Shown here in pieces: positions 32,902 through 52,371 of a DNA stretch of 64,000 bases. The notes beneath the pieces were generated by a model that was not told where the DNA came from, did no database searches, and saw only the letters and a list, made by a program, of their open reading frames with translations. The DNA is taken from positions 6,298,001-6,362,000 of the forward strand of contig NZ_CP134605.1 of assembly GCF_031844685.1 (NCBI RefSeq), read 5' to 3'. The stretch is from Streptomyces sp. ITFR-21 (GTDB taxonomy: Bacteria > Actinomycetota > Actinomycetes > Streptomycetales > Streptomycetaceae). The stretch's first letter is position 1; the number at the start of each line of letters is the position of its first letter. Position numbers and translations under genes: made by a program.

Positions 32902-33968
32902 AGAAGCACATGACGCCGGTCCGCCCGGCGCGGGTCCGCCCCGCACCGCGGCCGCCCGGCCACCGCGGCCGCTGGACCCGGCCCGCGCTCACCGCGACCC
33001 CGCTGGTGTGCTGCGTGCTGCTGGCACTGGTGCTCTACCAGGGGCGTAGCTCCTCCGGCCTGTTCGTCTGGGAGATCGCCGCCACCTACGTGCTGTTCGC
33101 GGCCGGCACCAAGTTCGTCTTCGCCGTCGCCGGGGTGTTCACCTTCGGCCAGGCGGCGGCCTTCGGCACCGGCGCGTACACCGTCGCGCTGCTCGGCCGG
33201 ATCCCCGTCAGCGGCCTGCAGGCGGTGCTGCTCGCCGGCTGCGCGGCGGCCCTGGTCTGCCTGGCGGTGTCCACCGCGATGCTGCGCACCACCGGAATCG
33301 GCTTCGCCATGGTGACCCTCGCCAGCGGCCAGGTACTGAACCAGCTCACCTACAAGGTGCACACCTTCGGCGGCGAGAACGGCCTGCCCGGGATCGTCCC
33401 CGGCCGGCTCTTCGGCCTCGACCTGACACTCCAGCGGCACCTGTGGTGGTATGTCTTCCTCGTCGTCGGCGTCTGCCTGGCCCTGCTCGCGGCCCTGGAG
33501 CGCAGCCAGTTCGGCGCCACCCTGCGCGGCCTGCGGGACAACCCGGTACTGGCCGAGGCCACCGGCGTCCCGGTGGTGCGGGCCCGGATGACCGCCTTCG
33601 CGGTGGCCGGCTTCTTCGGCGGCGTGGCCGGCGGGCTGCTGGCCCAGGTCCAGCTGAGCGTCACCCCCGACCTGCTGGACTTCAGCGTCTCGGGAACCGT
33701 GATCGTGATGTGCCTGCTCGGCGGCACCCCCTGGTTCGTCGGCGCGCCGCTCGGCGCGGTGATCTACATCTGGGGCCAGCAGCGCCTGGCCGACGGCGGC
33801 CAGAACGTCCTGCTCTGGACCGGGCTCGCCTTCCTCGCCGTGGTGCTGTTCGCCCCCGACGGCCTGACCGGCCTCGCCGTCCAAGGGGCCCGCGGCGCCG
33901 GCGCGCGCCGGGACCGGCGCGGGCGCCCGCGACAGCCCCGCGACGACGCGGAAGGGGACCCGTCATGA
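32898..33968 (+). CDS. branched-chain amino acid-type ABC transporter permease (LivM-like)
   Basis: A 356-residue permease with a basic N-terminal extension of about 30 residues and roughly nine hydrophobic helices. LivM landmarks include FGQAAAFGTGAYTVALLG, the cytoplasmic coupling segment LRGLRDNPVLAEATGVPV and MTAFAVAGFFGGVAGGLLAQ. ATG 32898 overlaps the LivH stop and its own stop overlaps the first ATPase gene, as in tightly coupled operons. The C-terminus carries an Arg/Gly-rich tail of about 25 residues that is not part of the fold. Confidence 0.92.
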   Translation: MKKHMTPVRPARVRPAPRPPGHRGRWTRPALTATPLVCCVLLALVLYQGRSSSGLFVWEIAATYVLFAAGTKFVFAVAGVFTFGQAAAFGTGAYTVALLGRIPVSGLQAVLLAGCAAALVCLAVSTAMLRTTGIGFAMVTLASGQVLNQLTYKVHTFGGENGLPGIVPGRLFGLDLTLQRHLWWYVFLVVGVCLALLAALERSQFGATLRGLRDNPVLAEATGVPVVRARMTAFAVAGFFGGVAGGLLAQVQLSVTPDLLDFSVSGTVIVMCLLGGTPWFVGAPLGAVIYIWGQQRLADGGQNVLLWTGLAFLAVVLFAPDGLTGLAVQGARGAGARRDRRGRPRQPRDDAEGDPS

Positions 33969-34774
33969 GCGCCGCAACCACCGCGGCCGAGCACGCGGAA
34001 GGCTTCACCATGCCCGGCGCCCAACTCGAACTGACCGGCGTCAGCAAGCGGTTCGGCCCGATACGGGCCGTCGACCGGGTGTCCTTCGGCGTCGCGCCCG
34101 GCGAACTGCTCGCGCTGCTCGGCGCGAACGGCGCCGGAAAGTCCACCCTCTTCGAGGTCATCGGCGGCCAACAGCGCGCCACCGAGGGGCGGATCGTGCT
34201 CGGCGGCACCGACATCACCCGCCGCAGCGCCCACGCCATCGCCCGCATGGGGCTGCTGCGCAGCTTCCAGGTGGCCAAGGTCTTCGACACCTACACCGTG
34301 CGGCAGAACATCGTGCTGTCCCTGCTCGGCGCCAGCTCCCGCGCGTTCGGACTGCGCGGGGCGCTGCGGATCTCGGCCGCCGAGCGGGCCGGCGTCGACT
34401 CCGCGCTGGAGCGCGCCGGACTGGGCGCCCACGCCGACCGTCCCTGCGCCGGCATCAGCGAGAGCGACCGCAAACGGCTCGACATCGCCCGGGTGCTGGT
34501 GCGGCCCGCGAAGGTCGTCCTGCTCGACGAGCCGACCGCCGGCCTGAGCACCGAGGACATCGACCGGATGATCACGCTGATCCGGCAGCTGCGCCGGGAC
34601 CAGCCCGATCTGAGCATCGTGCTGACCGCGCACGACATGAACGTGGTCCGGCAGCTCGCCGACCGGGCGCTGCTGCTGGTCGGCGGCCGCGGCCGGGTCG
34701 CCGGACCGGTCGTGGACGTCCTGCGCCACCCGGAGACCATCAGCACCTATCTGGGAGAGTCCGATGGCGAGTGA
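33965..34774 (+). CDS. ABC transporter ATP-binding protein (LivG-like) with degenerate signature motif
   Basis: A 269-residue ATPase. Walker A GANGAGKST near residue 55, Q-loop region LLRSFQVAKVFDTYTV, Walker B VVLLDEPTAGLS and the switch histidine in LTAHDMN are all present. The ABC signature, normally LSxGQ/LAYGQ before the RRLEIAR helix, reads GISESDRKRLDIAR: the conserved glycine is replaced by serine and Gln by Asp. In a heterodimer with the normal LivF subunit this would leave one of two ATP sites impaired, as in asymmetric ABC proteins. Starts at ATG 33965, overlapping the permease stop. Confidence 0.92.
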   Translation: MSAATTAAEHAEGFTMPGAQLELTGVSKRFGPIRAVDRVSFGVAPGELLALLGANGAGKSTLFEVIGGQQRATEGRIVLGGTDITRRSAHAIARMGLLRSFQVAKVFDTYTVRQNIVLSLLGASSRAFGLRGALRISAAERAGVDSALERAGLGAHADRPCAGISESDRKRLDIARVLVRPAKVVLLDEPTAGLSTEDIDRMITLIRQLRRDQPDLSIVLTAHDMNVVRQLADRALLLVGGRGRVAGPVVDVLRHPETISTYLGESDGE

Positions 34775-35534
34775 GCCACTGCTCGACGTGGACGGCCTCG
34801 ACGCCCACTACGGCAAGACGCAGGCGCTCTTCGGGGTGTCCCTCCAGGTCCGGCCCGGCGAGCGGGTCGCGCTGCTCGGCCGCAACGGCGCCGGCAAGAC
34901 CACCACGCTGCTGTCGGTCATGGGTGTCGCGGTCCGCCGCAGCGGCCGGGTCCGGGTGGACGGCCGGGACGTGGTCCGGATGCGGACCCCGGAGATCAGC
35001 CGGCTCGGCATCGCCTGGGTCCCCGACACCCGCCGGGTCTTCAAGAGCATGTCGGTCCGGGAGAACATCCAGGTCGCCGCCCGCGGCAACCCGGCCCAGG
35101 TGCTCGACCAGGTCGTCGCGGAGTTCCCGCTGCTGGAGCCCCTGCTGGCGCGGGACGCCGGCAACCTGTCCGGCGGCGAGCAGCAGGTACTGGCGATCGG
35201 CCGGGCGCTGGCCACCCGGCCGCGGGTGCTGCTGCTGGACGAACCCACCGAGGGCCTGGCCCCCGTGGTGACCGAACAGCTGCGGGAGTCGCTGGTCCGG
35301 CTCGGCGGCGGTGACATGGCGATCGTGCTCGCCGAGCAGAGCGTCAGCTTCGCCCTGGGGTTCTGCAGCCGGGTCTACATCTTCGAGGTCGGCCGGGTCG
35401 TCTACGGCGGTACCTCCCGCGAGGTGACCGAGAACCGCGAGCAGTGGCAGCGCTACATCGTCGAGGGCGGTGCCATCCCGGCGGCCGGCCGCCCCGCTCA
35501 GAACGACAACGACAGGAACGAGGTGCCACGGTGA
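34764..35534 (+). CDS. ABC transporter ATP-binding protein (LivF-like)
   Basis: A 256-residue ATPase with a full motif set: Walker A GRNGAGKTTT near residue 39, signature NLSGGEQQVLAIGRAL, Walker B VLLLDEPTEGLAP, and LAEQSVSFAL in the switch region, as usual for LivF (Gln rather than His). Its start overlaps the LivG-like gene by 11 bp and its stop overlaps the GTG of the cyclase gene. It completes the importer. With LivG showing a degenerate signature, this subunit contributes the intact one. Confidence 0.93.
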   Translation: MASEPLLDVDGLDAHYGKTQALFGVSLQVRPGERVALLGRNGAGKTTTLLSVMGVAVRRSGRVRVDGRDVVRMRTPEISRLGIAWVPDTRRVFKSMSVRENIQVAARGNPAQVLDQVVAEFPLLEPLLARDAGNLSGGEQQVLAIGRALATRPRVLLLDEPTEGLAPVVTEQLRESLVRLGGGDMAIVLAEQSVSFALGFCSRVYIFEVGRVVYGGTSREVTENREQWQRYIVEGGAIPAAGRPAQNDNDRNEVPR

Positions 35535-36565
35535 CCCCATCGGCGTCAGCATCCGCATCGCCCGCGTCCGGGCCGGCCGGACCGGAACCGGCCCCGCCCG
35601 CACCCGCCCCGCCCGGGACCGCCCGGCCGCCGTTCGACCGGCTGCCCCGGCTGCCCGGCTCCGGACTGCCCCACGCCTGGGACGTCTACGGCCCGGACGA
35701 CGAGTCGGGGACCGTCAACCTGCTCGACGGGCCCACCGTGGCCGCCGCGCTGGCCCGGCCCCGGTCCGGCCGCCGGATCGCGCTCAGCCTGCCCGTCACC
35801 CTCCCCGACCCGCCGCTGTTCAAGCGCCGCCCGGTCCGGCACGAGGTCTTCCCCACCGGGCGCAACACCTGGGACGACCGGCTCGACGGCCTGTACCTCC
35901 AGGCGTCCAGCCAGTGGGACAGCCTGCGGCACGTCCGGGCCCGCGAGGACGGCTTCTACGGCGGCTGGCAGGGCGACCCGGACCAGCACCCCACCCGGCT
36001 CGGCATCCAGAACTGGGCGTCCGGCATCGTCGGCAGGGGCGTCCTGGTCGACATCGCCGCCGAGCTGGCCGACGAGCCCGGCTACGACCCGTTCGACCGG
36101 TTCCGGATCGAAACCGACCACCTCAAGGCGGCGCTCGCCCGCCAGGGCACCGAGCTGGTACCCGGCGACATCCTGTGCCTGCGCACCGGCTGGATGGACC
36201 GCTACCTGGCCATGGACACCGACGACCGTACGGCCCACGCGCGCCTCTACGAGGACGTCGACAGCCGCCGCTGGGCCGGGCTGTCGGGCGGCGAGGACAT
36301 GAGCCGCTACCTGTGGGACTCCGGCGTGTCCGCCGTCGTCGCCGACAACCCCGCCGTCGAGTACTCGCCCGGCGAGCCCTGGCTCGGCTCGCTGCACCGC
36401 CGGCTCATCCCCTGCCTCGGCTTCGCGCTGGGCGAGCTGTTCACCCTCGGCGAGCTGGCCGCCGCCTGCCGGGCGGCCGGCGCGTACGACTTCCTCTTCG
36501 TCGCGGTCCCGCTCAACCTGCCGGGCGGTGTCGGCTCGCCGGCCAACGCCATGGCCGTCGTCTGA
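35531..36565 (+). CDS. cyclase family protein (kynurenine formamidase-like metal hydrolase)
   Basis: A 344-residue protein with a disordered Pro/Ala N-terminus (about 45 residues) and a cyclase-fold domain. The family metal motif HxGTHxDxxxH is represented by the variant QASSQWDSLRH (around residues 116-126), the form found in the longer actinobacterial branch; later landmarks are LCLRTGWMDRYL and FLFVAVPLNLPGGVGSP. Members hydrolyse formamides, cyclic amides or lactone-like rings. GTG 35531 overlaps the LivF stop. Directly behind the importer, it may open a ring of the imported compound or cleave an ester or amide before CoA activation. Confidence 0.85.
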   Translation: MTPSASASASPASGPAGPEPAPPAPAPPGTARPPFDRLPRLPGSGLPHAWDVYGPDDESGTVNLLDGPTVAAALARPRSGRRIALSLPVTLPDPPLFKRRPVRHEVFPTGRNTWDDRLDGLYLQASSQWDSLRHVRAREDGFYGGWQGDPDQHPTRLGIQNWASGIVGRGVLVDIAAELADEPGYDPFDRFRIETDHLKAALARQGTELVPGDILCLRTGWMDRYLAMDTDDRTAHARLYEDVDSRRWAGLSGGEDMSRYLWDSGVSAVVADNPAVEYSPGEPWLGSLHRRLIPCLGFALGELFTLGELAAACRAAGAYDFLFVAVPLNLPGGVGSPANAMAVV

Positions 36566-36632: not shown

Positions 36633-38684
36633 ATGAAGCACGGCATCGCGGTCGTCGGCGCCTCCGACCACAACTTCTGGTCGGGCCACGTACGCAGCAA
36701 CGTCGGCCAGTCCGGCTACACCGGCCAGGTCTGGCCGGTCAACCCGAACTACGAGACGGTGGGCGGCGTCCCCGCCTTCGCCTCGCTGTCCCGGATCGAC
36801 GGCGTGATCGACGCGGTCGTGGTGGCGGTGGCCGCCCACCGCTGCCCGGACATCGTCCGGGAGGCCGTCGGCCTCGGCGTCGCCGACATCGTCGTGGTCT
36901 CCGACGGCTTCGCCGAGCGCGGCCCCGACGGCCCCGGCGCCGCCCTGCAACGGCAGCTGGTCGACGCCTGCCAGGACGGCACCCGCCTCTACGGGCCGAA
37001 CTGCGTCGGCTTCGCCGACTTCCGGCGCGACCTGCGGCTGATCGCCGAGCCGATCCCGGCCGTCACCGAACCCGGCGCGATCAGCATCGTGTCGCAGAGC
37101 GGCGCCCTGCTGTCCACCCTGATGGCCGCGGTCGTCGAGGACGGCGGCTCGTTCGACTGGTGCGCCTCGCTCGGCAACGCCGCGCGGTTCGACGTGGCCC
37201 GCGCCATCGACTACGTCTGCGAGCGCGGCACCACCCGCTCGCTCATCGTCTACGCCGAGACGCTCGGCGAGGACATCCCCCGGCTGCGGGCCGCGCTCAC
37301 CCGGGCCAGGGACGAGAACGTGGCGGTGGTCATGCTCAAGGCCGGCCGGTCCGCGGTCGCCACCAAGATCGCGTACTCGCACACCGCGAGCGTCGCCGGG
37401 GACGACGCCGAGATCGACGCCTTCCTCAGCTCCTTCGGCGTGCTGCGCGTGGACTCGCTGGAGGAGATGGCCCGCGTCGCGGTCCTGGCGCCGCTGGTCC
37501 GCCGCGACCGCGGCGACGGCGTCGCCGTCATCGGCAGCTCCGGCGGGCAGGCGGCGATCGCCGGCGACCTCGCCCAGCGCGACCGGATGAAGCTGGCCCG
37601 GCTGACCGGCGACACCATGACGCTGCTGCGGGCCTCGGCCGCGTCGGGCTCGTTCATCGAGAACCCCTTCGACCTGGTCGGCCGCCCCGGCGCGAGGACG
37701 ACCACCGACGAGATATTCGAGGCCGTCTGGAGCGACCCGACCGTGGGCTTCACGCTCTCGCCCTGGTCGGTGATCTTCCCCGACGACTCGCCGGGACGGC
37801 AGGTGCACCGGGACTCGATCTCGCTCGCCGTCCGCACCGCGCGCCGGACCGGCACCCCCACGGTGATCTCCGCGCTGGTCAACGTCCCCTGGACGGACTG
37901 GGTGCTGGAGACCCGCCGCGCCAACCCCGGGGTCGCCGTCGTGCGCGGCCTGGAGAACACCATCCGGGCGCTGTCCCGGCTCTTCCCCGACCACCGCCCG
38001 GCCGCCGGCCACGCCGAGCCCGCCGCCGGACCGGTGGCTCCGGCCGCCGCGGTCACCGGCGAGATCGAGGGCCGCCGGGTGCTGGCCGCACTCGGGCTGC
38101 CGGTCGTCGCCGGCGAGGTCTGCGGCTCCGCCGAGGAGGCCGGCGCGGCGACACTGCGGCTGACCGGCCCCTACGTCGTCAAGGCGGACGTGGCGGGCGT
38201 GGCCCACAAGGCGCGCCTGGGCCTGGTCGTGGTCGGCTGCGAGGACCGGGCAGCGGTCGAGGCCGCGGTCAAGGGGTTCGAGGAGACCTTCAAGGAGCAC
38301 GGCATCCCCGCCTCGGCGCTGGCCGGCTACCTGGTGGAGGAGATGGCGACCGGCACCGAGCTGCTGGTCGGCCTCACCCGCTCCGCGCTCGGGTCGTTCC
38401 TCACCGTCGCGCTCGGCGGCGTCGCGGCCGGCGCCGGGACCGCGGCCGGCACCGTCCTGCTGCCCGCCGGGGAGGCGCGGATCATGGAGCTCCTCGGCCG
38501 GCACCTTCCGCTGCCACCGCAGGCACCCGGATTCCGGGCCGCGGCCGAGGCGGTGGCCAGGCTGTGCGCCGCGTTCGACACGGCGCCGCTCGACGCGTAC
38601 CGCGACATCGAGGTCAACCCGATGATGGTCGCCGCCGACCGCGCCGCCGTCGTCGACGCCCTCCTCGTGGCAAGGGAGGCGTGA
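36633..38684 (+). CDS. acyl-CoA synthetase, NDP-forming (acetate--CoA ligase family)
   Basis: A 683-residue fused ligase of the ADP-forming acyl-CoA synthetase type. It has a CoA-binding Rossmann domain (about 1-130, GIAVVGASDHNFWSG), a succinyl-CoA synthetase-like flavodoxin pair (about 145-460) with SIVSQSGALLS and phosphohistidine segment KIAYSHTASVAGDDAE, and a C-terminal ATP-grasp domain (about 470-683, GPYVVKADVAGVAHKARLG). It makes the CoA thioester of a carboxylic acid, or runs in reverse to conserve energy as ATP. AAAGGA precedes the ATG; the next gene starts 4 bp after the stop. Substrate unknown; probably the imported acid. Confidence 0.92.
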   Translation: MKHGIAVVGASDHNFWSGHVRSNVGQSGYTGQVWPVNPNYETVGGVPAFASLSRIDGVIDAVVVAVAAHRCPDIVREAVGLGVADIVVVSDGFAERGPDGPGAALQRQLVDACQDGTRLYGPNCVGFADFRRDLRLIAEPIPAVTEPGAISIVSQSGALLSTLMAAVVEDGGSFDWCASLGNAARFDVARAIDYVCERGTTRSLIVYAETLGEDIPRLRAALTRARDENVAVVMLKAGRSAVATKIAYSHTASVAGDDAEIDAFLSSFGVLRVDSLEEMARVAVLAPLVRRDRGDGVAVIGSSGGQAAIAGDLAQRDRMKLARLTGDTMTLLRASAASGSFIENPFDLVGRPGARTTTDEIFEAVWSDPTVGFTLSPWSVIFPDDSPGRQVHRDSISLAVRTARRTGTPTVISALVNVPWTDWVLETRRANPGVAVVRGLENTIRALSRLFPDHRPAAGHAEPAAGPVAPAAAVTGEIEGRRVLAALGLPVVAGEVCGSAEEAGAATLRLTGPYVVKADVAGVAHKARLGLVVVGCEDRAAVEAAVKGFEETFKEHGIPASALAGYLVEEMATGTELLVGLTRSALGSFLTVALGGVAAGAGTAAGTVLLPAGEARIMELLGRHLPLPPQAPGFRAAAEAVARLCAAFDTAPLDAYRDIEVNPMMVAADRAAVVDALLVAREA

Positions 38685-38688
38685 GCTC

Positions 38689-39135
38689 ATGGACACCACC
38701 GTTCCCGGCGCCCCGGCGACCCTGATCACCCGCGAGGCGATCCGCCGGTTCGCGGTCACACTCGGCACCCTCAACCCGATCCACCACGACGTGGCGACCG
38801 CCCGCCGGCGCGGCTTCCGCGACCTGGTGGCACCGCCGTTCTTCTTCACCACCGTCGGCATGTCGATGGGCCGGCTCACCACCTCCGACCGGTTGCGCGC
38901 GGACGGCATGCCGCTGGAGGACGAGCTCACCGGCCGGGTGGTGGCGGGCGAGACCAGCGTCCGCTGGTACGGGCCCATCGTCGCCGGCGACGAGGTCTCG
39001 GCCCACCAGGAGCTGCGGAGCGAGCAGCGCAAGACCGGCCGCAGCGGGCCGCTGACCCTCTTCACGTACTCCAAAACCTACTTCGTCGACGACCGGCTCG
39101 TCGTCGCCGAGACGCTCGTCAGGATCGGCCGGTGA
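38689..39135 (+). CDS. MaoC-like dehydratase, small subunit 1 (FAS1-type N-terminal half)
   Basis: A 148-residue single-hotdog protein. The segment TLGTLNPIHHDVATARRRGF corresponds to the R-hydratase motif (GDxNPxH), but the catalytic Asp position reads Thr while the His is kept. The region LTGRVVAGETSVRWYGPIVAGDE is typical of MaoC N-terminal halves. It overlaps the next MaoC-like gene by GTGA. In steroid degradation two such half-size proteins form a heterodimeric enoyl-CoA hydratase in which only one subunit is catalytic, which fits this pair. Confidence 0.85.
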   Translation: MDTTVPGAPATLITREAIRRFAVTLGTLNPIHHDVATARRRGFRDLVAPPFFFTTVGMSMGRLTTSDRLRADGMPLEDELTGRVVAGETSVRWYGPIVAGDEVSAHQELRSEQRKTGRSGPLTLFTYSKTYFVDDRLVVAETLVRIGR

Positions 39136-39638
39136 CGGCCGGCGCGCCGGACTCCGAGCCGGCCCCGCAGATCGCCCGCACCCTGCTGGTCTCCCGCACC
39201 TGGCGGCCCGACGAGGTCGACCTGTTCATGTACAGCGCGGTGACCTGGCTGACCCACCGGATCCACTTCGACCAGCGCTACGCCCGCAGCGAGGGCTACG
39301 ACGGCGTGCTGGTGCACGGCCCGCTCCAGGGCTCGTACCTCGGCCAGATGCTGTTCGACTACGCCGACCCGCGCGGCGGTTCGCTGACCGGCATCTCCTA
39401 CCGCCACCACCGGCCGGTGTACTGCAACGACACGCTGACCTGTTTGGCGCACGCGGTCGCCGCGGAGACCGGCCCCGACGGCTGCGTCCTGCGGGTCGAG
39501 CTGGAGATCCGCGACGGCCGCGGCACGCCGGCCACCTCCGGCACCGCGACGCTCGACCTGCCGGGCGGCTGGGACCCCGCCGAGGCGCCGGCCAACCCGC
39601 CCCGGCCGGCCGTCGTCGAATCGCCGGAGGCCGGCTGA
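39132..39638 (+). CDS. MaoC-like dehydratase, small subunit 2 (C-terminal half)
   Basis: A 168-residue hotdog-fold protein. The segment MYSAVTWLTHRIHFDQRYA around residues 36-54 aligns with the FRFSALTFNAHRIHYD-type hydratase motif; the histidine pair is retained, while the Asn/Asp-equivalent position looks like Leu. Further on EGYDGVLVHGPLQGSYL is standard for the family. GTG start overlaps subunit 1 and the stop overlaps the thiolase-like gene (TGATG). Together the two MaoC halves should hydrate an enoyl-CoA with a bulky or branched substituent, supplying a beta-hydroxyacyl-CoA to the aldolase-like protein encoded next. Confidence 0.85.
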   Translation: MTAGAPDSEPAPQIARTLLVSRTWRPDEVDLFMYSAVTWLTHRIHFDQRYARSEGYDGVLVHGPLQGSYLGQMLFDYADPRGGSLTGISYRHHRPVYCNDTLTCLAHAVAAETGPDGCVLRVELEIRDGRGTPATSGTATLDLPGGWDPAEAPANPPRPAVVESPEAG

Positions 39639-40777
39639 TGGTCGCGGTGACAGGCGTGGGGGAATCCGCCTACTCCCGGCGCAGCGGCCGGTCGGTCCAG
39701 GCGCTGGCCGCCGCGGCCGGCCGGGCGGCACTGCGGGACGCCGGACTGACGGCCGAGGACGTCGACGGGGTGATCCCGCTGGGCGGCTCGCTGTTCACCG
39801 AGGACCTGATCGCCGCGCTCGGGCTGCCGCTCCAGCTCACCGACGCGACGCCGCCGCCCGGCGGCAACGCCGCGGTCACCGCGCTGCGGCTGGCCACCGC
39901 CCTGATCGAGGCCGGCCGGGCCACCGTCGTCCTGGTCATCCTGGCCAGGAACGGGTCCTCCGCCAAACGCATCGACCAGCGGGTCGGCGAACTGCCGGGC
40001 CCCCAGTTCCGCCGGCAGCTGGAGCACCCGCACGGCTGGAGCACCCCCGCCGAGTGGTACGCGATGATCTGCCGGCGCCACATGCTGGAGTACGGCACCA
40101 CCAAGCGGCAGCTGGCCGCGGTCGCGCTGGCCGCCAACCGCTACGCGCAGCTCAACCCGCGGGCGATGCGCTTCGGCCGGCCACTGTCGTACGAGGACTA
40201 CCGGCGGGCGCCGATGATCGCCGAGCCGTACCAGCTCTACGACTGCTGCCTGGAGACCGACGGCGCCGCCGCCGTGCTGGTCACCGACGAGGAGCATGCG
40301 CTGCGTGCCGGCCCGCGGGCGGTACGGCTGCTGGCGGTGGAGACCGCGCGGCCGGAGAGCCCGGACGACCTGACCAACCGCCAGGACTGGCAGCGGGTGG
40401 GGCTGTCCCACGCGGCCCCGGCCGCCTACGAGAGCGCCGGGCTCGGGCCGCGGGACATGGACGCGGCCATGGTCTACGACTGCTTCTCCTTCGAGGTGAT
40501 CCACCAGCTCGAAGCGGCCGGGTTCTGCCCGCCGGGGGAGGGCGGCCGGTTCGTGGCGTCGGGCGCGCTGGAACCGGACGGCGCGCTCCCGCTCAACACC
40601 CACGGCGGCCTGCTCGCCGAGGGCCATCTCGGCGGCCTCAACCACGTCATCGAGGCCGTCCGGCAGCTGCGTGGCGAGGCGGGCGCCGCCCAGCTGGCAA
40701 AGGCCCGTCACATCGCGGTGACCGGCTGGGGCGACTGGGGCGACGGCTCGCTGGCGATCCTCGGAGGTACCAGGTGA
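39638..40777 (+). CDS. thiolase-superfamily protein, Ltp2-like (probable acyl-CoA retro-aldolase)
   Basis: A 379-residue thiolase-fold protein of the lipid-transfer/SCPx group. The nucleophile Cys of true thiolases is absent (GGNAAVTAL at that position) and so is the second Cys (GWGDWGDGSLAIL near the C-terminus), while the His of LLAEGHLGGLNHV remains. The segment VYDCFSFEVIHQLEAAGFC and the ending resemble Ltp proteins, some of which (Ltp2) cleave tertiary beta-hydroxyacyl-CoA by retro-aldol reaction. ATG overlaps the MaoC stop; GTG of the DUF35 partner overlaps its own stop. This suggests release of propionyl-CoA or acetyl-CoA by aldol rather than Claisen cleavage. Confidence 0.88.
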   Translation: MVAVTGVGESAYSRRSGRSVQALAAAAGRAALRDAGLTAEDVDGVIPLGGSLFTEDLIAALGLPLQLTDATPPPGGNAAVTALRLATALIEAGRATVVLVILARNGSSAKRIDQRVGELPGPQFRRQLEHPHGWSTPAEWYAMICRRHMLEYGTTKRQLAAVALAANRYAQLNPRAMRFGRPLSYEDYRRAPMIAEPYQLYDCCLETDGAAAVLVTDEEHALRAGPRAVRLLAVETARPESPDDLTNRQDWQRVGLSHAAPAAYESAGLGPRDMDAAMVYDCFSFEVIHQLEAAGFCPPGEGGRFVASGALEPDGALPLNTHGGLLAEGHLGGLNHVIEAVRQLRGEAGAAQLAKARHIAVTGWGDWGDGSLAILGGTR

Positions 40778-41295
40778 GCGCCCTCGTGCCGCCCCCCGGC
40801 ACCCCGCTGCCCAACGTCGACGAGCCGGACTTCGCCCCGTTCTGGGCAGGCTGCCGGCTGGGCCGGCTGCTGCTGCCCCGGTGCGCCGAGGGGCATCTGA
40901 ACTGGCCGCCGCGGCCGGTGTGCCGCACCTGCCGGGCCGACATCACCGACTGGACGCAGGTGCCGGGCCGCGGCCGGCTCTTCTCCTGGACCGTGGTCCA
41001 CCGCACCCGGCTGCGCGGATACGCGGACCTGACGCCGTACACCGTCGTCATCGTCGCCCTCGACCAGGACCCCGCCATCCGGCTGCTCGGCCGCTGCGTC
41101 CGCCCGCCGGCCCGGCCGGCCCAGGGCATGCCGATGGAGACCGAGTACGTGCCGGCCGCGGAGGGCGTCGTGCTGCCGTTCTGGCGGCCCGCCGCCGAGA
41201 GCGCCCCCGGGGCCGGCGAACCCGCGTCCGCCGAGCCGCCCGCGCCCGCCGGCGAACCCGCGCCCGCCGCCCCGCCCGCGCGCACCGACCACTGA
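40774..41295 (+). CDS. OB-fold Zn-ribbon (DUF35) partner of the Ltp-like protein
   Basis: A 173-residue protein with an N-terminal rubredoxin-like zinc ribbon (RCAEGH, then VCRTC, about residues 30-50) and an OB-fold (GRLFSWTVVHRTR, TVVIVALDQDPAIRLLGR), followed by an Ala/Pro/Glu-rich tail. One metal ligand pair appears as Cys and His rather than CxxC. DUF35 proteins form obligatory complexes with thiolase-like partners; the Ltp2-ChsH2 complex in mycobacterial steroid catabolism is the model. The GTG overlaps the thiolase-like stop, which fits stoichiometric co-synthesis. Confidence 0.9.
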   Translation: MSALVPPPGTPLPNVDEPDFAPFWAGCRLGRLLLPRCAEGHLNWPPRPVCRTCRADITDWTQVPGRGRLFSWTVVHRTRLRGYADLTPYTVVIVALDQDPAIRLLGRCVRPPARPAQGMPMETEYVPAAEGVVLPFWRPAAESAPGAGEPASAEPPAPAGEPAPAAPPARTDH

Positions 41296-41308: not shown

Positions 41309-42334
41309 ATGCAGCTGTCCGTCGTACTGCCCGGCCCGGTGAGCGACCGCCTGCCGGAAGCGGCCCAGGAGAGCGAGAAGGCCGGCCTGTACCGGCTGTG
41401 GACCACCGAGTCGCCCGGCCGGGACGCGGTGCTGCGGGCCAGCGTGCTGCTGGGCGCCACCCGTACGCTCGCCGCCGGCACCGGTATCAGCTTCGCCTTC
41501 GCCCGGCAGCCGCTGGCGGCGGCCGGACTGGCCGCCGACGCCTACGAGCTGTCCGGCGGCCGGTTCAGCCTGGGCCTCGGCGCCGGCACCCGCGGCCAAC
41601 GCCGCTGGTACGGGGTGGACTTCGACCACCCCGCGGCCCGGATGGCCGACTACGTGCGGGCGCTGCGGGCGATCTGGGCCGGCGACGGCCGGGCCCGCTA
41701 CCAGGGGCCCTTCTACGACATCGACGTGCCGCGCGTGCAGTTGGCGGGCACCCCCGCCTCACGCGCCGGCCTGAAGGTGTACGGCGGCGGCCTGCACCCG
41801 CGGATGCTCCGCGCCGTCGCGGACAGCTGCGACGGCGTCGTGCTGCACCCGCTGGCCGGCGGGCCGCGCTACCTCGACGACGTGGTGCTGCCCGCGATCG
41901 CGGCCGCGCCGGACCGGGCGCCCGGTTTCCGGCTGGTGGTCTGGTGCCCGCTCAGCGTCGACTTTGACGCGGAGCTCGCCCGGCGGCGGGCGGCCGAACA
42001 ACTGGCCTTCTACTTCGCCACCCCCAGCTACCGGGACGTCGCCGGCAGCGCCGGGTACGGCGCGGTGGCCGACGAGTTGGTCGACCGGTTCAACAACGGC
42101 GGGGCGGGCTTCGCGGAACTCGCCCCGCTGATCCCCGACGGCATGCTGGACCACTTCGTGGTGCACGGCACCCCGGCGCAGGTCGCCGACCGGCTCGCCG
42201 CCCGCCGCACCGCGTGGGCCGAGCGGGGGGTGGACGAGGTCGCCCTCCAGATACCGGCCCAGTCCGTCACCTCCGACAGCCTGCTCGACAGCATCGGGCA
42301 GCTCGCCGCGACCGTCCTGCCGAGGTTCGCGTGA
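41309..42334 (+). CDS. LLM class flavin-dependent oxidoreductase
   Basis: A 341-residue luciferase-like TIM-barrel protein (MQLSVVLPGPVSDRL, AGTGISFAFARQPLAAA, ELSGGRFSLGLGAGTRGQR, GGLHPRMLRAVADSCDGV). Members use FMN or coenzyme F420 for monooxygenation or hydride transfer. In streptomycetes F420 is available, but this subfamily cannot be assigned to either by eye. GAGAGGA precedes the ATG. Its stop overlaps the GTG of the MBL hydrolase. In this pathway it could oxidise a ketone to an ester/lactone or hydroxylate the substrate, ahead of hydrolysis by the neighbouring hydrolases. Confidence 0.88.
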   Translation: MQLSVVLPGPVSDRLPEAAQESEKAGLYRLWTTESPGRDAVLRASVLLGATRTLAAGTGISFAFARQPLAAAGLAADAYELSGGRFSLGLGAGTRGQRRWYGVDFDHPAARMADYVRALRAIWAGDGRARYQGPFYDIDVPRVQLAGTPASRAGLKVYGGGLHPRMLRAVADSCDGVVLHPLAGGPRYLDDVVLPAIAAAPDRAPGFRLVVWCPLSVDFDAELARRRAAEQLAFYFATPSYRDVAGSAGYGAVADELVDRFNNGGAGFAELAPLIPDGMLDHFVVHGTPAQVADRLAARRTAWAERGVDEVALQIPAQSVTSDSLLDSIGQLAATVLPRFA

Positions 42335-43398
42335 GCGGCGGCGCCGGCAGCGCGACCAGCAGGCACGACTGGACGCTGCCCGGCCTGTACGAGGTCGCCG
42401 ACGGCGTCTTCCGGATCCCGCTGCCGCTGCCGAACGACGGTCTGCGGGCGGTCAACGTCTACGTGGTCGTGGACGGCGGACAGCTCGTCCTGGTCGACTC
42501 CGGATGGGCGCTCGACGCGGCCGTCACCGAACTCGAACTGCGCCTGAAACAGCTCGGCTTCAGCGGCGAGGCGATCACCCGGGTCCTGGTCACGCACGCC
42601 CACCGCGACCACTACACGCTGGCGACCAGGCTGCGCCGCCGCTACGGCTCCGCCCTGGCGCTCGGCGCCGGCGAACGGCACTACCTGCGGGCCGTCCGCG
42701 ACGGCAGCGCCCAGGCCACCCGCGCCGCCCGGCTGCGCGCCCACGGCGCAACCGACCTCGCCGACCGCGCCGCCCGCCCGGCCCCCCGCCCGGACCTCGC
42801 CGAATGGGCCGACCCCGACGACTGGCTGACCGCCCCCGGCACGGTGGCGCTGCGGGAGCGCGAGCTGGCCGTCGTCGCCACCCCCGGGCACACCCGCGGC
42901 CACGTGGTCTTCGCCGACCACCGGCACGGGCTGCTCTTCGCCGGCGACCACGTGCTGCCGCACATCACCCCTTCGCTGTCGGTGGAGCCCGAACCCGCCG
43001 CGCTGCCGCTGCGCGACTACCTGCGCTCGCTGCGGCTGACGAAGACCCTGCCCGAGATGCGGCTGCTGCCCGGACACGGTCCGGTCACCGCCGGCTTCCA
43101 CGACCGGGTCGACGAACTGCTCGCCCACCACGACCGCCGGCTGCGCGCCGCCCTGGACGTCGTCCGCGACCGGGCGGGCGCCACCACGGCCAACACCGTC
43201 GCCACGCTGCTGCCGTGGACCCGCCACAACCGGACCTTCGCCCAACTCGACCCGGGCAACCGGACCCTGGCGGTGCTGGAGACGGCCGTGCACCTCGACG
43301 TACTGGTCGAGGACGGTCTGCTCACCACGGCCGACCGGCTCGGCGTCCGGTACTACGAGCCAGCCGGCCCGCACCGGCCGACGACCGGGGAGGACTGA
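42331..43398 (+). CDS. MBL fold metallo-hydrolase
   Basis: A 355-residue metallo-beta-lactamase-fold hydrolase. The zinc motif HxHxDH appears as THAHRDHY near residue 90, with further ligands in TPGHTRGHVVF, FAGDHVLPHITP and LLPGHGPV; a helical C-terminal extension (about 265-340) is typical of MBL proteins found in acyl-CoA clusters. GTG 42331 overlaps the LLM gene stop. Likely activities are thioester, ester or lactone hydrolysis; the location next to a flavin oxidase-like protein and before a 4-hydroxyacid-type dehydrogenase/kinase module makes a lactonase attractive but unproven. It is not expected to be a beta-lactam resistance enzyme. Confidence 0.9.
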   Translation: MSGGAGSATSRHDWTLPGLYEVADGVFRIPLPLPNDGLRAVNVYVVVDGGQLVLVDSGWALDAAVTELELRLKQLGFSGEAITRVLVTHAHRDHYTLATRLRRRYGSALALGAGERHYLRAVRDGSAQATRAARLRAHGATDLADRAARPAPRPDLAEWADPDDWLTAPGTVALRERELAVVATPGHTRGHVVFADHRHGLLFAGDHVLPHITPSLSVEPEPAALPLRDYLRSLRLTKTLPEMRLLPGHGPVTAGFHDRVDELLAHHDRRLRAALDVVRDRAGATTANTVATLLPWTRHNRTFAQLDPGNRTLAVLETAVHLDVLVEDGLLTTADRLGVRYYEPAGPHRPTTGED

Positions 43399-43402
43399 CC
43401 CC

Positions 43403-44587
43403 ATGGATCTCAGCTACGCACCCGCCACCACCGAACTCGCCGCCAGGACCCGGGCGTTCGTTGCCGAGGTGGTCCTCCCGGCAGAGGACCGGCACGCGGG
43501 CGCGGCACCGGACGGCGACCGGTGGCGTACCGAACTGCAGGCCGCAGCCAAGGCCGCCGGGGTCTTCGGGCCCCAACTGCCCGCCGAATACGGCGGACAC
43601 GGCCTGGGCATGGTCGAGCGGGCACCGGTCTTCGAGGAGGCCGGCTACTCCCTGTTCGGCCCGATCGCGGTCAACTGCGCGGCGCCCGACGAGGGCAACC
43701 TCCACCTGCTCGCCGAAGTCGCCGACGAGGAGCAGAAGCACCGCTACCTCGGCCCGCTGGCCCGCGGTGAGATCCGCTCGGCGTTCGCGATGACCGAACC
43801 GGCCCCCGGTGCCGGCTCCGACCCGAGGGCGCTGGCCACCACGGCCGTCCGGGCCGGCGGCGGCTGGCGCATCGACGGCCGCAAGCGGTTCATCACCGGC
43901 GCCGACGGAGCCGCCTTCCTCATCGTGATGGCCCGCACCTGCGGCGCGCCCGGGGACGCGGGCGGCGCGACGATGTTCCTGGTCGACGCGGACAACCCCG
44001 GGGTGCGGATCGAGCGCCACATCCCGACGATGGACCGCAGCATGGCCGGCGGCCACTGCGAGGTGCGCTTCGACCGCTGTACGGTCCCGGACGCGGCCGT
44101 GCTCGGCGCGGCCGACCAGGGCTTCTCGTTCGCCCAGGTCCGGCTGGGACCGGCCCGCACCACCCACTGCATGCGCTGGCTGGGCGCCGCCCGCCGGGCC
44201 CACGAGGTCGCGGTGGGCTACGCGGTCGGGCGCGGGATGTTCACCACCCGGCTCGCCGACCTGGGCATGGCCCAGCAGATGGTCGCCGACTCCGAGATCG
44301 ACCTCGCGGCCTGCCGCGCGCTGATCCTGCGGGCCTGCTGGGACCTGGACACCGGGGCGCCGAGCGCCGACTCGACCTCCATCGCGAAGACCTTCGTGTC
44401 GGAGGCGGTCGGCCGGATCGTCGACCGGTCGGTGCAGATCTGCGGCGGCCTCGGCGTCAGCGAGGACCTGCCGCTGGCCCGGATCCACCGCGAGGTGCGG
44501 CCGTTCCGGATCTACGACGGCCCCTCCGAGACCCACCGCTGGGCGCTCGCCCGCCGCGCCGCCCGCCGGGCGCAGGGGGCCCGGTGA
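43403..44587 (+). CDS. acyl-CoA dehydrogenase, ACAD10/11-like
   Basis: A 394-residue FAD enzyme. AFAMTEPAPGAGSDPRAL (about residues 128-145) and the RIDGRKRFITGA segment define the middle domain; QICGGLGVSEDLPLARIHR and IYDGPSETHRWALARR the C-terminus. The DGPSETH ending, in place of YEGTxxIQ, is characteristic of the ACAD10/11 branch, whose members act with an APH-type kinase on 4-hydroxyacyl-CoA substrates. An APH-like gene lies at 46873-47895, three genes downstream. Stop overlaps the GTG of the SDR. Assignment to the branch is from the ending motif and context. Confidence 0.9.
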   Translation: MDLSYAPATTELAARTRAFVAEVVLPAEDRHAGAAPDGDRWRTELQAAAKAAGVFGPQLPAEYGGHGLGMVERAPVFEEAGYSLFGPIAVNCAAPDEGNLHLLAEVADEEQKHRYLGPLARGEIRSAFAMTEPAPGAGSDPRALATTAVRAGGGWRIDGRKRFITGADGAAFLIVMARTCGAPGDAGGATMFLVDADNPGVRIERHIPTMDRSMAGGHCEVRFDRCTVPDAAVLGAADQGFSFAQVRLGPARTTHCMRWLGAARRAHEVAVGYAVGRGMFTTRLADLGMAQQMVADSEIDLAACRALILRACWDLDTGAPSADSTSIAKTFVSEAVGRIVDRSVQICGGLGVSEDLPLARIHREVRPFRIYDGPSETHRWALARRAARRAQGAR

Positions 44588-45330
44588 CCACGGCCGGCCG
44601 GCCCAGCGCGTTGATCACCGGCGGCTCGCGCGGCATCGGCCTCGGCGTCGCCTCCGCCCTCGCGGCCCGCGGCTGGGGGCTGACCCTCTGCGCCCGCGAC
44701 CCCGCCCGGCTGGCCGCCGCCGGCGCCGAACTGCGCTCCCTGGGCGGCCGGGTGGAGAGCGTGGCCGGCGACGCGGCGGACGAGGCGTGCCTGGCCGCGG
44801 CCGTCGACCGGCACGAAGCAGCCTACGGGTCGATGAACGCGCTGGTGCTGGCGGCCGGCGTCGGCTCCGCCGGACCGCTGGCCGGATACCCGGTGCGCCG
44901 GATCGACAAGCAGTTCGCGGTCAACGTACGGGCGCCGTTCGTGCTGGTCGGCCGGGCGCTGCCGCTGCTGCGGGCCGGCGCGCGCGACGACCCCGCCCGC
45001 GGCGGCCGGATCGTCGCCCTCACCTCAATCGAGGGCGTCCATCCCGAACCGGGTCTGGCCGTCTACGGCGCCTCCAAGGCGGCGCTGATCTCGCTCGTAC
45101 GGTCGGTCAACGCCGAGGAGGCGGCCCGCGGGGTGACCGCCTCGGCCATCTCGCCCGGCTACGTCGACACCGACATGAGCGCCTGGGTCGCCGACCGGAT
45201 CCCGCCGGGCTCGATGATCACCGTCGCGGACATCGTGCGGACCGTCGACCTCGTCCTCTCGCTCTCCCCGTCGGCCGTCATCCCGCACCTGGTCATCAAC
45301 CGGGTCGGCGGCGGCCCCTACCGCGCGTGA
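44584..45330 (+). CDS. SDR family oxidoreductase
   Basis: A 248-residue Rossmann-fold short-chain dehydrogenase. Cofactor motif [10 protein letters not shown] near residue 13, basic residue ARD favouring NADP(H), catalytic Ser in ALTSIEG and YGASK near residue 160. The usual NNAG reads LAAG. The stop is 34 bp before the CoA-transferase start. In the neighbourhood of an ACAD10/11-like dehydrogenase and an APH-like kinase it could interconvert a 4-keto- and 4-hydroxyacyl-CoA, as LvaD does in levulinate catabolism, or serve as a beta-hydroxyacyl-CoA dehydrogenase for the MaoC product. Confidence 0.9.
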
Positions 45331-45364
45331 CCGACAGCGGTCCGCCTCAAGGAGGTTCAACGCC

Positions 45365-46876
45365 ATGGACAAGGTGGTCAGCAGTGTCGCCGAGGCCCTC
45401 GACGGTATCGGTGACGGAGCCACCCTCGCGGTCGGGGGGTTCGGCCTGTGCGGCATCCCCAGCGTCCTCATCGCGGGGCTGCTGGCGAAAGGGGTGACCG
45501 GCCTGGAGGCGGTCTCCAACAACTGCGGGGTCGACGACTGGGGACTGGGACTGCTGCTGAAGCAGAAGCGGATCCGCCGGATGGTGGCCAGCTACGTGGG
45601 CGAGAACAAGGAGTTCGAGCGCCAGTACCTCAGGGGCGAACTGGAGGTGGAGCTGGTGCCGCAGGGCACCCTCGCGGAGAAGCTGCGGGCGGGCGGCTGC
45701 GGGATCCCCGCCTTCTACACCGCCACCGGCGTCGGCAGCCAGGTCGCGGAAGGCGGCCTGCCTCGGCGGTTCGCCGCCGACGGAAGCGTCGCCCTGGCCA
45801 GCCCGGCCAAGGACACCGCGCTGTTCACGTTCGACGGCCGGGAGCGTACGTACGTCCTGGAGAAGGCGATCACCTGCGAGTTCGGACTCGTCCGGGCCTG
45901 GAGGGGCGACCGGCACGGCAACCTGGTCTTCCGCGAGTCGGCCCGCAACTTCAACCCGCTCGCCGCCATGGCCGCCCGCCTGACGGTCGCGGAGGTCGAG
46001 GAACTGGTCGAGCCCGGCGAGATCGACCCGGCCCAGGTGCACCTGCCCGGGATCTACGTGCACCGGGTGCTGGCGCTGACACCGCGGCAGGCGGCGGACA
46101 AGCGGATCGAGAAGCTGACCACCCGCAGCCGCAGGCCGCCCGCCGACGGCGGACAGCCGATGCCCGCCGGCCCGCCGGAGCCGGAACCGCTACCCGCGGA
46201 CGGCGCCCCGCCGGGACGCCTCGGGCTGACCCGGCGCCAGATGGCGGCCCGCGCCGCCCGCGAGCTGTCCGACGGCGACTACGTCAACCTGGGCATCGGC
46301 CTGCCCACGCTGGTACCGGAGTTCGTGCCGGACGACGTGGAGATCGTGCTGCAGTCGGAGAACGGGGTGCTGGGCACCGGCCAGTACCCGTACGAGGGCG
46401 AGGAGGACGCCGACCTGGTGAACGCCGGCAAGGCCACCGTCACGGTCCGGCCCGGCGCCTCGATCTTCGACTCCGCCGCCAGCTTCGGCATGATCAGGGG
46501 CGGCCGGATCGACACCGCGATCCTCGGCGCGATGCAGGTCTCCGCCGCCGGGGACATCGCGAACTGGATGATCCCCGGCAGAATGATCAAGGGCATGGGC
46601 GGCGGCATGGACCTGGTGGCCGGCGCCCGGCGGGTGGTGGTCCTCATGGAGCACGTCGCCAGGGACGGCAGCCTCAAGATCGTCGACGCCTGCTCGCTGC
46701 CGATCACCGGCCTGGGCGTGGTGCACCGGATCATCACCGACCTGTGCGTCCTCGACGTCACCGGACAGGGCCTGGTCCTGCGGGAATTGGCGCCCGGCGT
46801 GACCGAGGAGCAGGTACGGGCCAGGACCGGCCCCGACCTCACCGTGGCGCTGCGGGCGCCGGCGGACCCGTCGTGA
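45365..46876 (+). CDS. fused 3-oxoacid CoA-transferase (A and B subunits in one chain)
   Basis: A 503-residue type I CoA-transferase in which the A subunit (about 1-240, [18 protein letters not shown]) and the B subunit (about 285-495, [16 protein letters not shown]) are joined by a Pro/Gly/Arg-rich linker near residues 250-285. The catalytic Glu is in SENGVLGTG. Such enzymes move CoA from succinyl- or acetyl-CoA to an oxo-acid. AAGGAGG lies upstream of the ATG. Stop overlaps the kinase-like gene GTG. It offers a second, ATP-free route to a CoA thioester in addition to the NDP-forming ligase. Confidence 0.93.
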
Positions 46877-47895
46877 CCGCCGTGCTCCAGGGCCTGGACC
46901 TGCCCGCGCTCCAGCGCTGGTTCGACCGGCAGGTGCCCGAGGCCGCCGGGCCGATCCGCGCCGAGCCGCTGCACGGCGGCCGGTCCAACCTCACCTACCG
47001 CGTCACCGACGGCACCGCCTGCTGGGTGCTGCGCCGCCCGCCACTGGGCGGACTCACCCCGTCCGCGCACGACATGGGCCGCGAGTACCGGGTGGTGGCC
47101 GCCCTCCAGGGCACCGGGGTGCCCGTCGCCCGCACGGTGGCGCTGTGCGAGGACCCCGCTGTGCTCGGCGTGCCCTTCTCGGTCGTCGCCCACGTGGACG
47201 GCACGGTGATCCGCACCCGGGAGGACCTGGCGCGCCTGTCCCCGGAACAGGCCGCACAGCGCGCGTACGGCCTGGTGGACGCCATGGCCGCGTTGCACGC
47301 GGTGCCCTACCGGGACGTCGGCCTGGGCGGCTTCGGCCGTCCGGCCGGCTACCTCGGCCGACAGGTGCGCCGCTGGCACGACCAGTGGCACCGGGTCGCC
47401 ACCCGCGAACTCCCCGACATCCGGCGGCTGCACGCCGCCCTGGCGGCGGACGTCCCGGCCGAGTCGGGGGCCTCGGTCGTACACGGCGACGTCAGGATCG
47501 ACAACGCCATCCTCGCGCCCGAGGACCCCGGCCGGGTGCGGGCCCTGGTCGACTGGGAGATGGCCGCGCTCGGCGACCCGCTGGCAGACCTCGGCCTGCA
47601 CCTGGTCTACCGTGACCCCGCGTTCGAACCCGTGCTGGCCGGATCCGCCGCGTCGGTGAGCGACCGGTACCCGCCGGCCGCCGCGCTGGCCGAGCGGTAC
47701 GCCCGCGCCAGCGGGCACGACCTGGGGCGCCTGGACTTCTACCTGGGCCTGGGCTACTTCAAGATCGCGGTCATCGCCGAGGGCATCCACGCCCGCCACA
47801 CGGGCGGCCTCACGGTCGGCCCCGGCTTCGACACGGTGGGCGAGGCGGTCCCCCGGCTGGCCGCGGCCGGCCTCGCGGCACTGGCGTCCGGCTGA
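46873..47895 (+). CDS. phosphotransferase family protein, ACAD10/LvaA-like (APH fold)
   Basis: A 340-residue kinase-fold protein. Nucleotide-binding start [15 protein letters not shown] (about 30-45), catalytic loop [10 protein letters not shown] (about 208-217) and metal loop [17 protein letters not shown] are intact, so it should be an active kinase. The subfamily is the one fused to or paired with ACAD10/11 dehydrogenases, and matches LvaA of the Pseudomonas levulinate pathway, which phosphorylates the 4-hydroxyl of 4-hydroxyacyl-CoA. It is the last gene of the block; a large hairpin follows. An aminoglycoside-resistance role is unlikely in this setting. Confidence 0.9.
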
Positions 47896-48782: not shown

Positions 48783-48833
48783 GGGGGGGAAACTACCCCG
48801 GTTGGCCGACCCCCGCATGGGTGTGCGCCACAG

Positions 48834-50919: not shown

Positions 50920-51007
50920 GGGATCAAGGGGGGGATGGGCTGGACGTTCCTACCCCTCTGGTTGAACACTCACGCGGTGGTGCCCGGGTGCATCCTTGTC
51001 GTCTGGG

Positions 51008-52360: not shown

Positions 52361-52371
52361 TCGGGTGACTC

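Follow-up and report, generated by a model that had tools for sequence, protein, structure and literature searches.

A hybrid kinase-dehydrogenase module, predicted to dehydroxylate 4-hydroxyacyl-CoAs, at the end of a 21-gene directon of Streptomyces sp. ITFR-21

Does Streptomyces sp. ITFR-21 carry its own version of the levulinate (lva) operon of Pseudomonas? The question is raised by four genes at 43403-47895 on the + strand of the window, i.e., the whole stretch of 64,000 nucleotides analyzed here (contig NZ_CP134605.1, positions 6,298,001 to 6,362,000, from a genome of 7.36 Mb in four contigs). They encode a dehydrogenase, a short-chain dehydrogenase/reductase (SDR), a fused CoA-transferase and an APH-fold kinase, and a sequence-only reading of this DNA had assigned to kinase, dehydrogenase and SDR the roles of LvaA, LvaC and LvaD, which turn a 4-ketoacyl-CoA into an enoyl-CoA through a 4-phosphoacyl-CoA. 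The enzyme roles of that proposal are very likely right, while the label "levulinate operon" is wrong: with a dehydrogenase of the LvaC branch, a kinase of the ACAD10/11 branch and no LvaB, the module is a hybrid and not an lva operon. Its coupling to a Sal-like aldolase encoded in the same directon is plausible.

The dehydrogenase and its phosphate site

Gene calls, made with our own codon-position script, and Pfam matches above cut-off bore out the four families: Acyl-CoA_dh N, M and 1 (best 120 bits), adh_short (145 bits), CoA_trans (382 bits) and APH (163 bits). At two of the three junctions there is a four-base overlap, and 34 bases separate the SDR from the CoA-transferase. The predicted 4-phosphoacyl-CoA dehydrogenase (43403..44587) carries R247, R252, an H255-C-M-R258 motif and D372. 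Its ending DGPSETH, earlier read as an ACAD10/11 hallmark, is indeed present at residues 372-378, Asp372 being the informative letter. In mouse ACAD11, Asp753 is reported as catalytic, while R626, H634 and R637 hold the phosphate and are required for 4-phosphoacyl-CoA turnover, H634 and R637 falling within an HCMR motif (PMC12440821). By alignment, ACAD11 R626, H634, R637 and D753 match R247, H255, R258 and D372 of the window protein. A conserved helix-breaking Pro has also been described for the ACAD11 family (Pro463 in human ACAD11; PMC11342911). Among the 102 PDB sequences matched by the window dehydrogenase, the top four are 4hr3 and three ACAD11 chains. From 104 fetched loci, 147 dehydrogenase-like proteins were scored for the R/H/R/D set: it is kept in all 99 high-scoring relatives, in 3 of 6 intermediate ones and in none of the 42 low-scoring distant dehydrogenases. 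Tyr replaces the phosphate-site His in the remaining three intermediate proteins, and 10 of the 99 close relatives have HVMR instead of HCMR.

Concerning the branch, reference LvaA, B, C, D and E were taken from an lva-type operon with annotated lvaB on Pseudomonas aeruginosa plasmid p12939-PER (L173). The window dehydrogenase is 48% identical to this LvaC over 395 residues and 36% identical to mouse ACAD11. In a 42-row tree it falls within an 11-row set whose other members are all actinobacterial (98/95), and a 100/100 split sets apart ACAD11, 4hr3 and another dehydrogenase of the window genome; joining the window protein to the ACAD11 group was disfavored (approximately unbiased test, AU p 0.0105). 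The same placement came from a quick tree of 57 rows, three of them outgroups. For the latter, 39 loci were picked by hand, the gene caller yielded 5 of 12 further named loci and 2 of 6 outgroup loci, and the large-subunit dehydrogenase of the window served as third outgroup; the 42-row tree omitted the three outgroups and 12 hand-picked rows, mostly near-duplicates. Both trees hold the L173 LvaC and not the P. putida KT2440 protein, and "LvaC branch" means here the branch of the former. ACAD10 and ACAD11 domains have been reported as 62% and 56% identical to KT2440 LvaC (PMC11342911), whereas the plasmid LvaC is 34% identical to mouse ACAD11; should KT2440 LvaC fall in the ACAD11 branch, the branch wording would change and the residue result would stay intact. 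With this definition, alignment and trees place the dehydrogenase in the LvaC branch, outside the ACAD11 branch. The window genome also holds a second kinase-dehydrogenase pair (C1:999852-1002155), the dehydrogenase of which is 54% identical to mouse ACAD11; both dehydrogenase branches thus occur within one genome.

The kinase, the SDR and the CoA-transferase

The kinase (46873..47895; Pfam APH), a candidate 4-hydroxyacyl-CoA kinase, had been described as retaining its catalytic residues, and it does: HGDVRIDN lies at 204 (Asp206, Asn211) and VDWE at 226. The kinase residues named for ACAD11 are D220 and N225 (PMC12440821), to which D206 and N211 correspond. With the kinase domain of mouse ACAD11 it aligns at 32% identity over 336 residues, with LvaA at 30% over just 195; the nearest solved chains are 3dxp and 9o56, and ACAD11 is among the best PDB matches. 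A 42-row kinase tree, with 30 loci picked by hand, has a 100/100 split with LvaA, Massilia and Thermus relatives and a Rhodococcus LvaA-like kinase on one side and 38 rows on the other, including the window kinase, ACAD11, 3dxp and 9o56. LvaA orthology was rejected on this placement; a resistance-type kinase was likewise rejected for 46873-47895, on the PDB matches and the tree. Thus, the phylogeny proposed earlier as a check gives a divided answer, the dehydrogenase going with LvaC and the kinase with ACAD10/11 rather than with LvaA. Kinases of other bacteria that stand nearer to ACAD10/11 than LvaA does have been mentioned already (PMC11342911); this branch of kinases is therefore nothing new in itself.

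LvaB has been reported to bind LvaA and to be required for growth of P. putida on levulinate, and a Pseudomonas citronellolis lva-type cluster without lvaB has been published (PMC6692424). The LvaB family, DUF6285 (PF19802), which was found in three LvaB-like proteins, is absent from the window genome and present in 2 of the 23 genomes searched; when 14 named genomes were searched as a control, two (Caulobacter and Thermus) were positive. Across the 104 loci, a profile built from the same three LvaB-like proteins recovered such proteins at only three loci, all with LvaA-type kinases.

The SDR (44584..45330; Pfam adh_short), with YGASK at 161, is a candidate 4-oxoacyl-CoA reductase. It is 31% identical to LvaD vs. 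53-55% to another SDR type, and LvaD orthology was therefore rejected. The Lva-like assignment of three roles is thus upheld by the phosphate-site and kinase residues and by the recurrence of the trio (dehydrogenase, kinase and SDR) in Actinobacteria, but not as orthology to LvaA and LvaD, and LvaB is missing. The CoA-transferase (45365..46876) scores as a SCOT-family 3-oxoacid enzyme, with both subunit models above their curated cut-offs (TIGR02428, 316 bits, cut-off 243.55; TIGR02429, 226 bits, cut-off 128.5) and the ENG motif present, as SENG at 331; Glu332 is presumably the catalytic residue. Neither this protein nor the CoA ligase of the directon matches the AMP-forming LvaE at E 1e-3.

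Compared with the Pseudomonas lva operon, then, the window shares the dehydrogenase branch, with an SDR and an APH-fold kinase alongside, but differs in the kinase branch, in the SDR and in having no LvaB and no LvaE; it is also without the DUF485 and acetate-type symporter genes, and has the fused CoA-transferase and a LIV-type transporter operon instead. With mammalian ACAD10/ACAD11 it shares the kinase branch, the absence of LvaB and the R/H/R/D residues, whereas kinase and dehydrogenase are fused there and separate proteins here, and the window dehydrogenase stands outside the ACAD11 branch.

Occurrence of the module among relatives

A streptomycete version attached to an Ltp2-type cleavage module had been put forward as new; in itself, a streptomycete version proved not to be rare. 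Close dehydrogenases occur in 21 of 394 genomes of the family and 20 of 396 of the phylum (E <= 1e-90), as well as in 2 of 35 of the genus (E <= 1e-80); each of these counts includes the window's own genome. Homologues of lvaABCD are reported from Alpha-, Beta- and Gammaproteobacteria, citing Rand et al. 2017 (PMC6692424). For the neighborhoods, 99 dehydrogenases from the 104 loci, 98 of them distinct, were picked for closeness to the window protein; the top match (L054) is outside this sample because its gene call is incomplete. A same-strand kinase lies within four genes in 79 of the 98 relatives, of ACAD11 type in 76 and of LvaA type in 3. The hybrid dehydrogenase-kinase pair is hence common among the sampled relatives (76/98) and not unique to the window. 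The neighboring SDR most resembles the window's type in 15 relatives and LvaD in 48; for the other 35, no SDR was called.

These counts bear directly on one alternative, an ordinary beta-oxidation dehydrogenase and an unrelated resistance-type phosphotransferase that are neighbors by chance. Pfam alone yields generic names compatible with it, and the kinase gives weak matches, of 25 bits each, with models of Mph(A) and APH(3'). However, the catalytic Asp in place of Glu and the R..H.MR signature are jointly absent from all 42 distant dehydrogenases, ACAD11 is among the best PDB matches of both proteins, and the two genes keep company in most relatives. Residue and neighborhood counts already contradict a chance pair, which we consider extremely improbable.

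The trio is widespread in other Actinobacteria, for example on Rhodococcus and Georgenia plasmids. Plasmid pRZP2 of Rhodococcus sp. ZPP carries it at 787311-790284 with 65% (dehydrogenase), 56% (kinase) and 53% (SDR) identity, but in the order dehydrogenase, kinase, SDR; its neighbors are AtuA, biotin carboxylase and thiolase genes, with no aldolase operon around it. On the same plasmid (L172, L179), 200 kb away from this trio, an LvaA-like kinase is encoded within an aldolase operon, which also encodes a 118-residue protein without Pfam match. What the window adds to the trio is the fused CoA-transferase between SDR and kinase and the surrounding operon. Among 80 dehydrogenase loci from genome contigs, some of them cut by contig ends, one (L092) has a CoA-transferase relative (42 and 50%), about 3 kb past the trio.

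Two side observations concern other relatives. Streptomyces-type dehydrogenases with all phosphate-site residues (63-69%) are encoded at L108, L111, L112, L115, L118, L120, L126, L129, L131, L132, L145 and L146, with no kinase in the fetched locus, a few of these loci being near a contig end. In Nocardioides (L117, 8940-18274), two kinase-dehydrogenase pairs, one per dehydrogenase branch, surround a thiolase, DUF35 and two-subunit dehydrogenase set, and the second dehydrogenase has Tyr for the phosphate-site His. Concerning earlier descriptions, neither an actinobacterial dehydrogenase-kinase-SDR trio nor an aldolase joined to one was found in the open-licence literature, judged by title and abstract opening among the matches listed.

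The surrounding directon and a candidate route

The four genes are the end of a same-strand run of 21 genes that starts with an IclR-family regulator at 26531, has a maximum gap of 144 bases and overlaps at 10 of its 20 junctions. The Pfam search covered 17 of these genes; LivH, LivM, LivG and LivF were named by reading. The four genes had been described as attached to an Ltp2-type cleavage module. A thiolase-fold aldolase (39638..40777) followed by a DUF35 partner of ChsH2-C type (40774..41295; Pfam OB_ChsH2_C 49 bits, zf-ChsH2 38 bits) is present, but in its catalytic residues the aldolase differs from Ltp2. Ltp2 is reported to use YDHF and Tyr344, Sal a Tyr-Cys dyad (YDCY) and TbSLP the form YDCF, and the His of the C-x3-H-x8-C-x2-C zinc finger is reported to be kept only in the DUF35 domains of Shy, the partner of Sal (PMC12329534). 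The window aldolase shares with the Ltp2-ChsH2 and Sal-Shy steroid aldolases the thiolase fold, the DUF35 partner gene and a YD.F/Y motif; specifically, it has YDCF at 280, as in TbSLP, and a His where Ltp2 has Tyr344, on which grounds a plain Ltp2 label was rejected. The DUF35 protein has exactly the C3H1 spacing of Shy (C37, H41, C50, C53). Judged by residues, the YDC dyad and this finger make the aldolase Sal-like, although its PDB scores are higher with 4u4e and 6ok1 (TcLtp2) than with 9myr, a lipid-transfer protein that we take to be Sal. The aldolase has no Cys at the position where the L117 homologue carries one, presumably that of the thiolase nucleophile. Close aldolases are rare, with 6 of 392 phylum genomes at E <= 1e-70, the window's own counted, and only the window genome among 388 family genomes at E <= 1e-75.

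When a tertiary beta-hydroxyacyl-CoA is cleaved by retro-aldol chemistry, a ketone results, and a suitably distant carboxylate makes this ketone a free 4-oxo acid; such an acid requires activation by a CoA-transferase if SDR, kinase and LvaC-type enzyme are to act on it. In the route that we favor, a CoA-activated beta-branched acid would be desaturated by a two-subunit dehydrogenase, predicted from the small-subunit type gene at 28171..29343 (Pfam: C-terminal dehydrogenase domain only) and the large-subunit type gene at 29347..30528. It would then be hydrated by a MaoC/HadA-like subunit (38689..39135; FAS1_DH_region 77 bits) and a MaoC-like subunit (39132..39638; MaoC 27.9 bits, cut-off 27), and the aldolase with its DUF35 partner would cleave the product to acetyl-CoA (or propionyl-CoA) and a ketone. 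No aldehyde dehydrogenase is found among the 17 Pfam-searched genes, which favors a ketone as the aldolase product. If also bearing a carboxylate, the ketone would be a free 4-oxo acid, such as levulinate from a 3-methyladipate-type substrate; to give an example of our own from general chemistry, 3-hydroxy-3-methyladipyl-CoA would yield levulinate and acetyl-CoA. The CoA-transferase would activate the acid, the SDR would reduce the 4-oxoacyl-CoA to a 4-hydroxyacyl-CoA, the kinase would phosphorylate the 4-hydroxyl and the LvaC-type dehydrogenase would expel the phosphate to leave a 2-enoyl-CoA for beta-oxidation. Among the matches listed, papers that use the word 3-methyladipate concern human or mouse metabolism by title.

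The gene order, the intact active-site motifs and the family placements are read directly from the DNA, and the steps built on them differ in strength. That kinase and dehydrogenase carry out 4-phosphoacyl-CoA chemistry is highly probable, and the SDR step and the aldolase activity are moderately likely. That the aldolase feeds a 4-oxo acid to the CoA-transferase and the trio, and from which substrate, we rate as less likely than not. Overall, we see a roughly even chance that the four genes are the final, dehydroxylating arm of one catabolic operon. Rather more doubtful is the complete proposal, in which a single operon would join two-carbon removal from a beta-branched dicarboxyl-CoA by a Sal-like retro-aldolase, via SCOT re-activation, to an LvaB-free dehydroxylation by an LvaC-type enzyme and an ACAD10/11-branch kinase. 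In the literature searched, retro-aldol cleavage and 4-hydroxyacyl dehydroxylation were found described only separately. Two partial arrangements give grounds for linking the halves. At L054, which encodes the closest dehydrogenase (71%), the kinase adjoins and the same strand encodes a YDCF aldolase 3 kb downstream, although a gene of the opposite strand intervenes; and on pRZP2 a YDCF aldolase, DUF35, a cyclase, a CoA-transferase of another type and the LvaA-like kinase share one directon. The CoA-transferase relative near the trio at L092 is a further link.

Several observations weigh against such a coupled route. None of the 80 dehydrogenase loci shows the window's arrangement, 61 of them are altogether without an aldolase relative, and no relative carrying the whole operon was found, nor was the operon recovered elsewhere via the aldolase (genomes and plasmids) or via the small dehydrogenase or the CoA ligase (plasmids only); the coupling of aldolase and trio consequently draws mainly on one genome and two partial analogues. 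The Nocardioides locus was rejected as a further analogue, since its thiolase-like protein lacks a YD motif and carries a Cys at the position of the nucleophile. Concerning the kinase, none was called nearby in 19 of the 98 relatives, and about a dozen Streptomyces loci are without one by tblastn too, some near a contig end; some loci scored as lacking a kinase end at a contig edge or had it missed by the gene caller (L071, L077 and L154 show one). Additionally, the CoA-transferase family is named for 3-oxo and not 4-oxo acids. A second cluster of the window genome (C1:233042-247852; L160, L161) holds a 55% aldolase, a DUF35 protein, an LLM gene (Pfam), cyclase-family and IclR-type relatives, an NMT1-type binding protein and split CoA-transferase subunits 65 and 70% related to the window's, but no dehydrogenase or kinase of the trio type. 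The CoA-transferase, which the sequence-only reading had rightly found and made the activating enzyme of the trio, may thus belong to the aldolase core.

Two upstream hydrolases had been suggested as openers of gamma-lactones, and we take these to be the following two genes. The metallo-beta-lactamase-fold hydrolase (42331..43398; Pfam 101 bits) ends 4 bases before the dehydrogenase with intact metal motifs (HAHRDH and GHTRGH), while the PF04199 cyclase-family protein (35531..36565; Pfam 53 bits) lies about 7 kb upstream with the degenerate metal motif QASSQWDSLRH, with Gln where the family motif, which we take to be HxGTHxDxPxH, has His. The genes may accordingly form a stand-alone 4-hydroxyacid or gamma-lactone module, in which hydrolases open the lactone, the CoA-transferase activates the 4-hydroxy or 4-oxo acid and SDR, kinase and dehydrogenase finish, the aldolase serving another step or substrate. 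Twelve of the 80 loci, all Streptomyces (L094, L095, L096, L104, L106, L107, L113, L114, L116, L123, L124 and L128), have a 47-51% relative of the intact hydrolase immediately beyond the dehydrogenase-kinase pair, encoded by the other strand; the hydrolase may therefore belong to the 4-hydroxyacid route, and its company with the trio but not with an aldolase fits lactones better, as does the frequency of aldolase-free loci. On the other hand, the genes share one directon with the aldolase, the cyclase motif is degenerate, and a distant genome (G764, 34 kb fetched) groups aldolase, DUF35, LLM and a 29% metallo-beta-lactamase relative without the trio, which would link the hydrolase with the aldolase too. 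We hold a lactone module to be unlikely.

The two-subunit dehydrogenase brings in another alternative, an operon for breaking down a cyclic isoprenoid or steroid-like compound in which kinase and dehydrogenase act on a ring-derived 4-hydroxyacyl-CoA instead of a short 4-oxo acid. The best named match of the small subunit is NCBIfam IpdE2 (117 bits, with pimD at 80 bits, both under cut-off), and the top PDB matches of the large subunit are 6wy8, 6wy9 and 4x28; we assume steroid roles for IpdE2 and 6wy8. The aldolase dyad and the zinc finger of its partner resemble the bile-acid enzymes Sal and Shy, and relatives of the trio in Rhodococcus have AtuA and biotin-carboxylase genes nearby and an annotated limC at a distance of 9 kb. 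However, the IpdE2/PimC-type matches are far under their curated cut-offs, the best named match of the large subunit is the dicarboxylate-type PimC (pimC_large, 163 bits), and no ring-opening oxygenase or ketosteroid dehydrogenase matches among the 17 Pfam-searched genes. A ring-derived substrate appears quite unlikely to us.

The remaining genes of the directon, all on the + strand, are the IclR-family regulator (26531..27316; Pfam IclR_C and HTH_IclR), a crotonase-family enoyl-CoA hydratase (27374..28174; ECH_1 136 bits), a LIV-type ABC transporter, the CoA ligase and an LLM gene. The transporter comprises a substrate-binding protein (30673..31929; Peripla_BP_6 184 bits), the PDB relatives of which are too weak for naming a ligand (best 61 bits), and permeases and ATPases named from gene order and translations (32035..35534: LivH 32035-32901, LivM 32898-33968, LivG 34010-34774 and LivF 34764-35534). 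The acyl-CoA ligase is of ADP-forming type (36633..38684; CoA_binding, Succ_CoA_lig and ATP-grasp_5), with acetate--CoA ligase alpha as best NCBIfam match (237 bits), followed by 4-hydroxybutyrate and 3-hydroxypropionate CoA ligases, all under cut-off. The luciferase-like (LLM) oxidoreductase (41309..42334) scores 163 bits in Pfam and 175 bits, under cut-off, with TIGR03617. Past the directon, a TylF-type methyltransferase and an enoyl-CoA hydratase-family gene (47970-49643, - strand) converge on its end. They are followed on the same strand (49645-54710) by a conservon-like set (sensor ATPase, roadblock protein, DUF742 protein and GTPase-like protein) and then two cytochrome P450-like genes, one of which scores slightly below the Pfam cut-off.

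Returning to the hybrid module, its make-up suggests that bacteria assemble the 4-hydroxyacyl-CoA dehydroxylation step by combining a single dehydrogenase lineage with kinases of two or more lineages. The LvaB dependence of P. putida is therefore probably not general, as the P. citronellolis cluster without lvaB already hints (PMC6692424). If the coupled route is true, retro-aldol cleavage of beta-branched acids would be a source of the cells' 4-oxo and 4-hydroxy acids. Both points would aid the annotation of actinobacterial pairs of an acyl-CoA dehydrogenase and a phosphotransferase, which are generically named in the public records examined.

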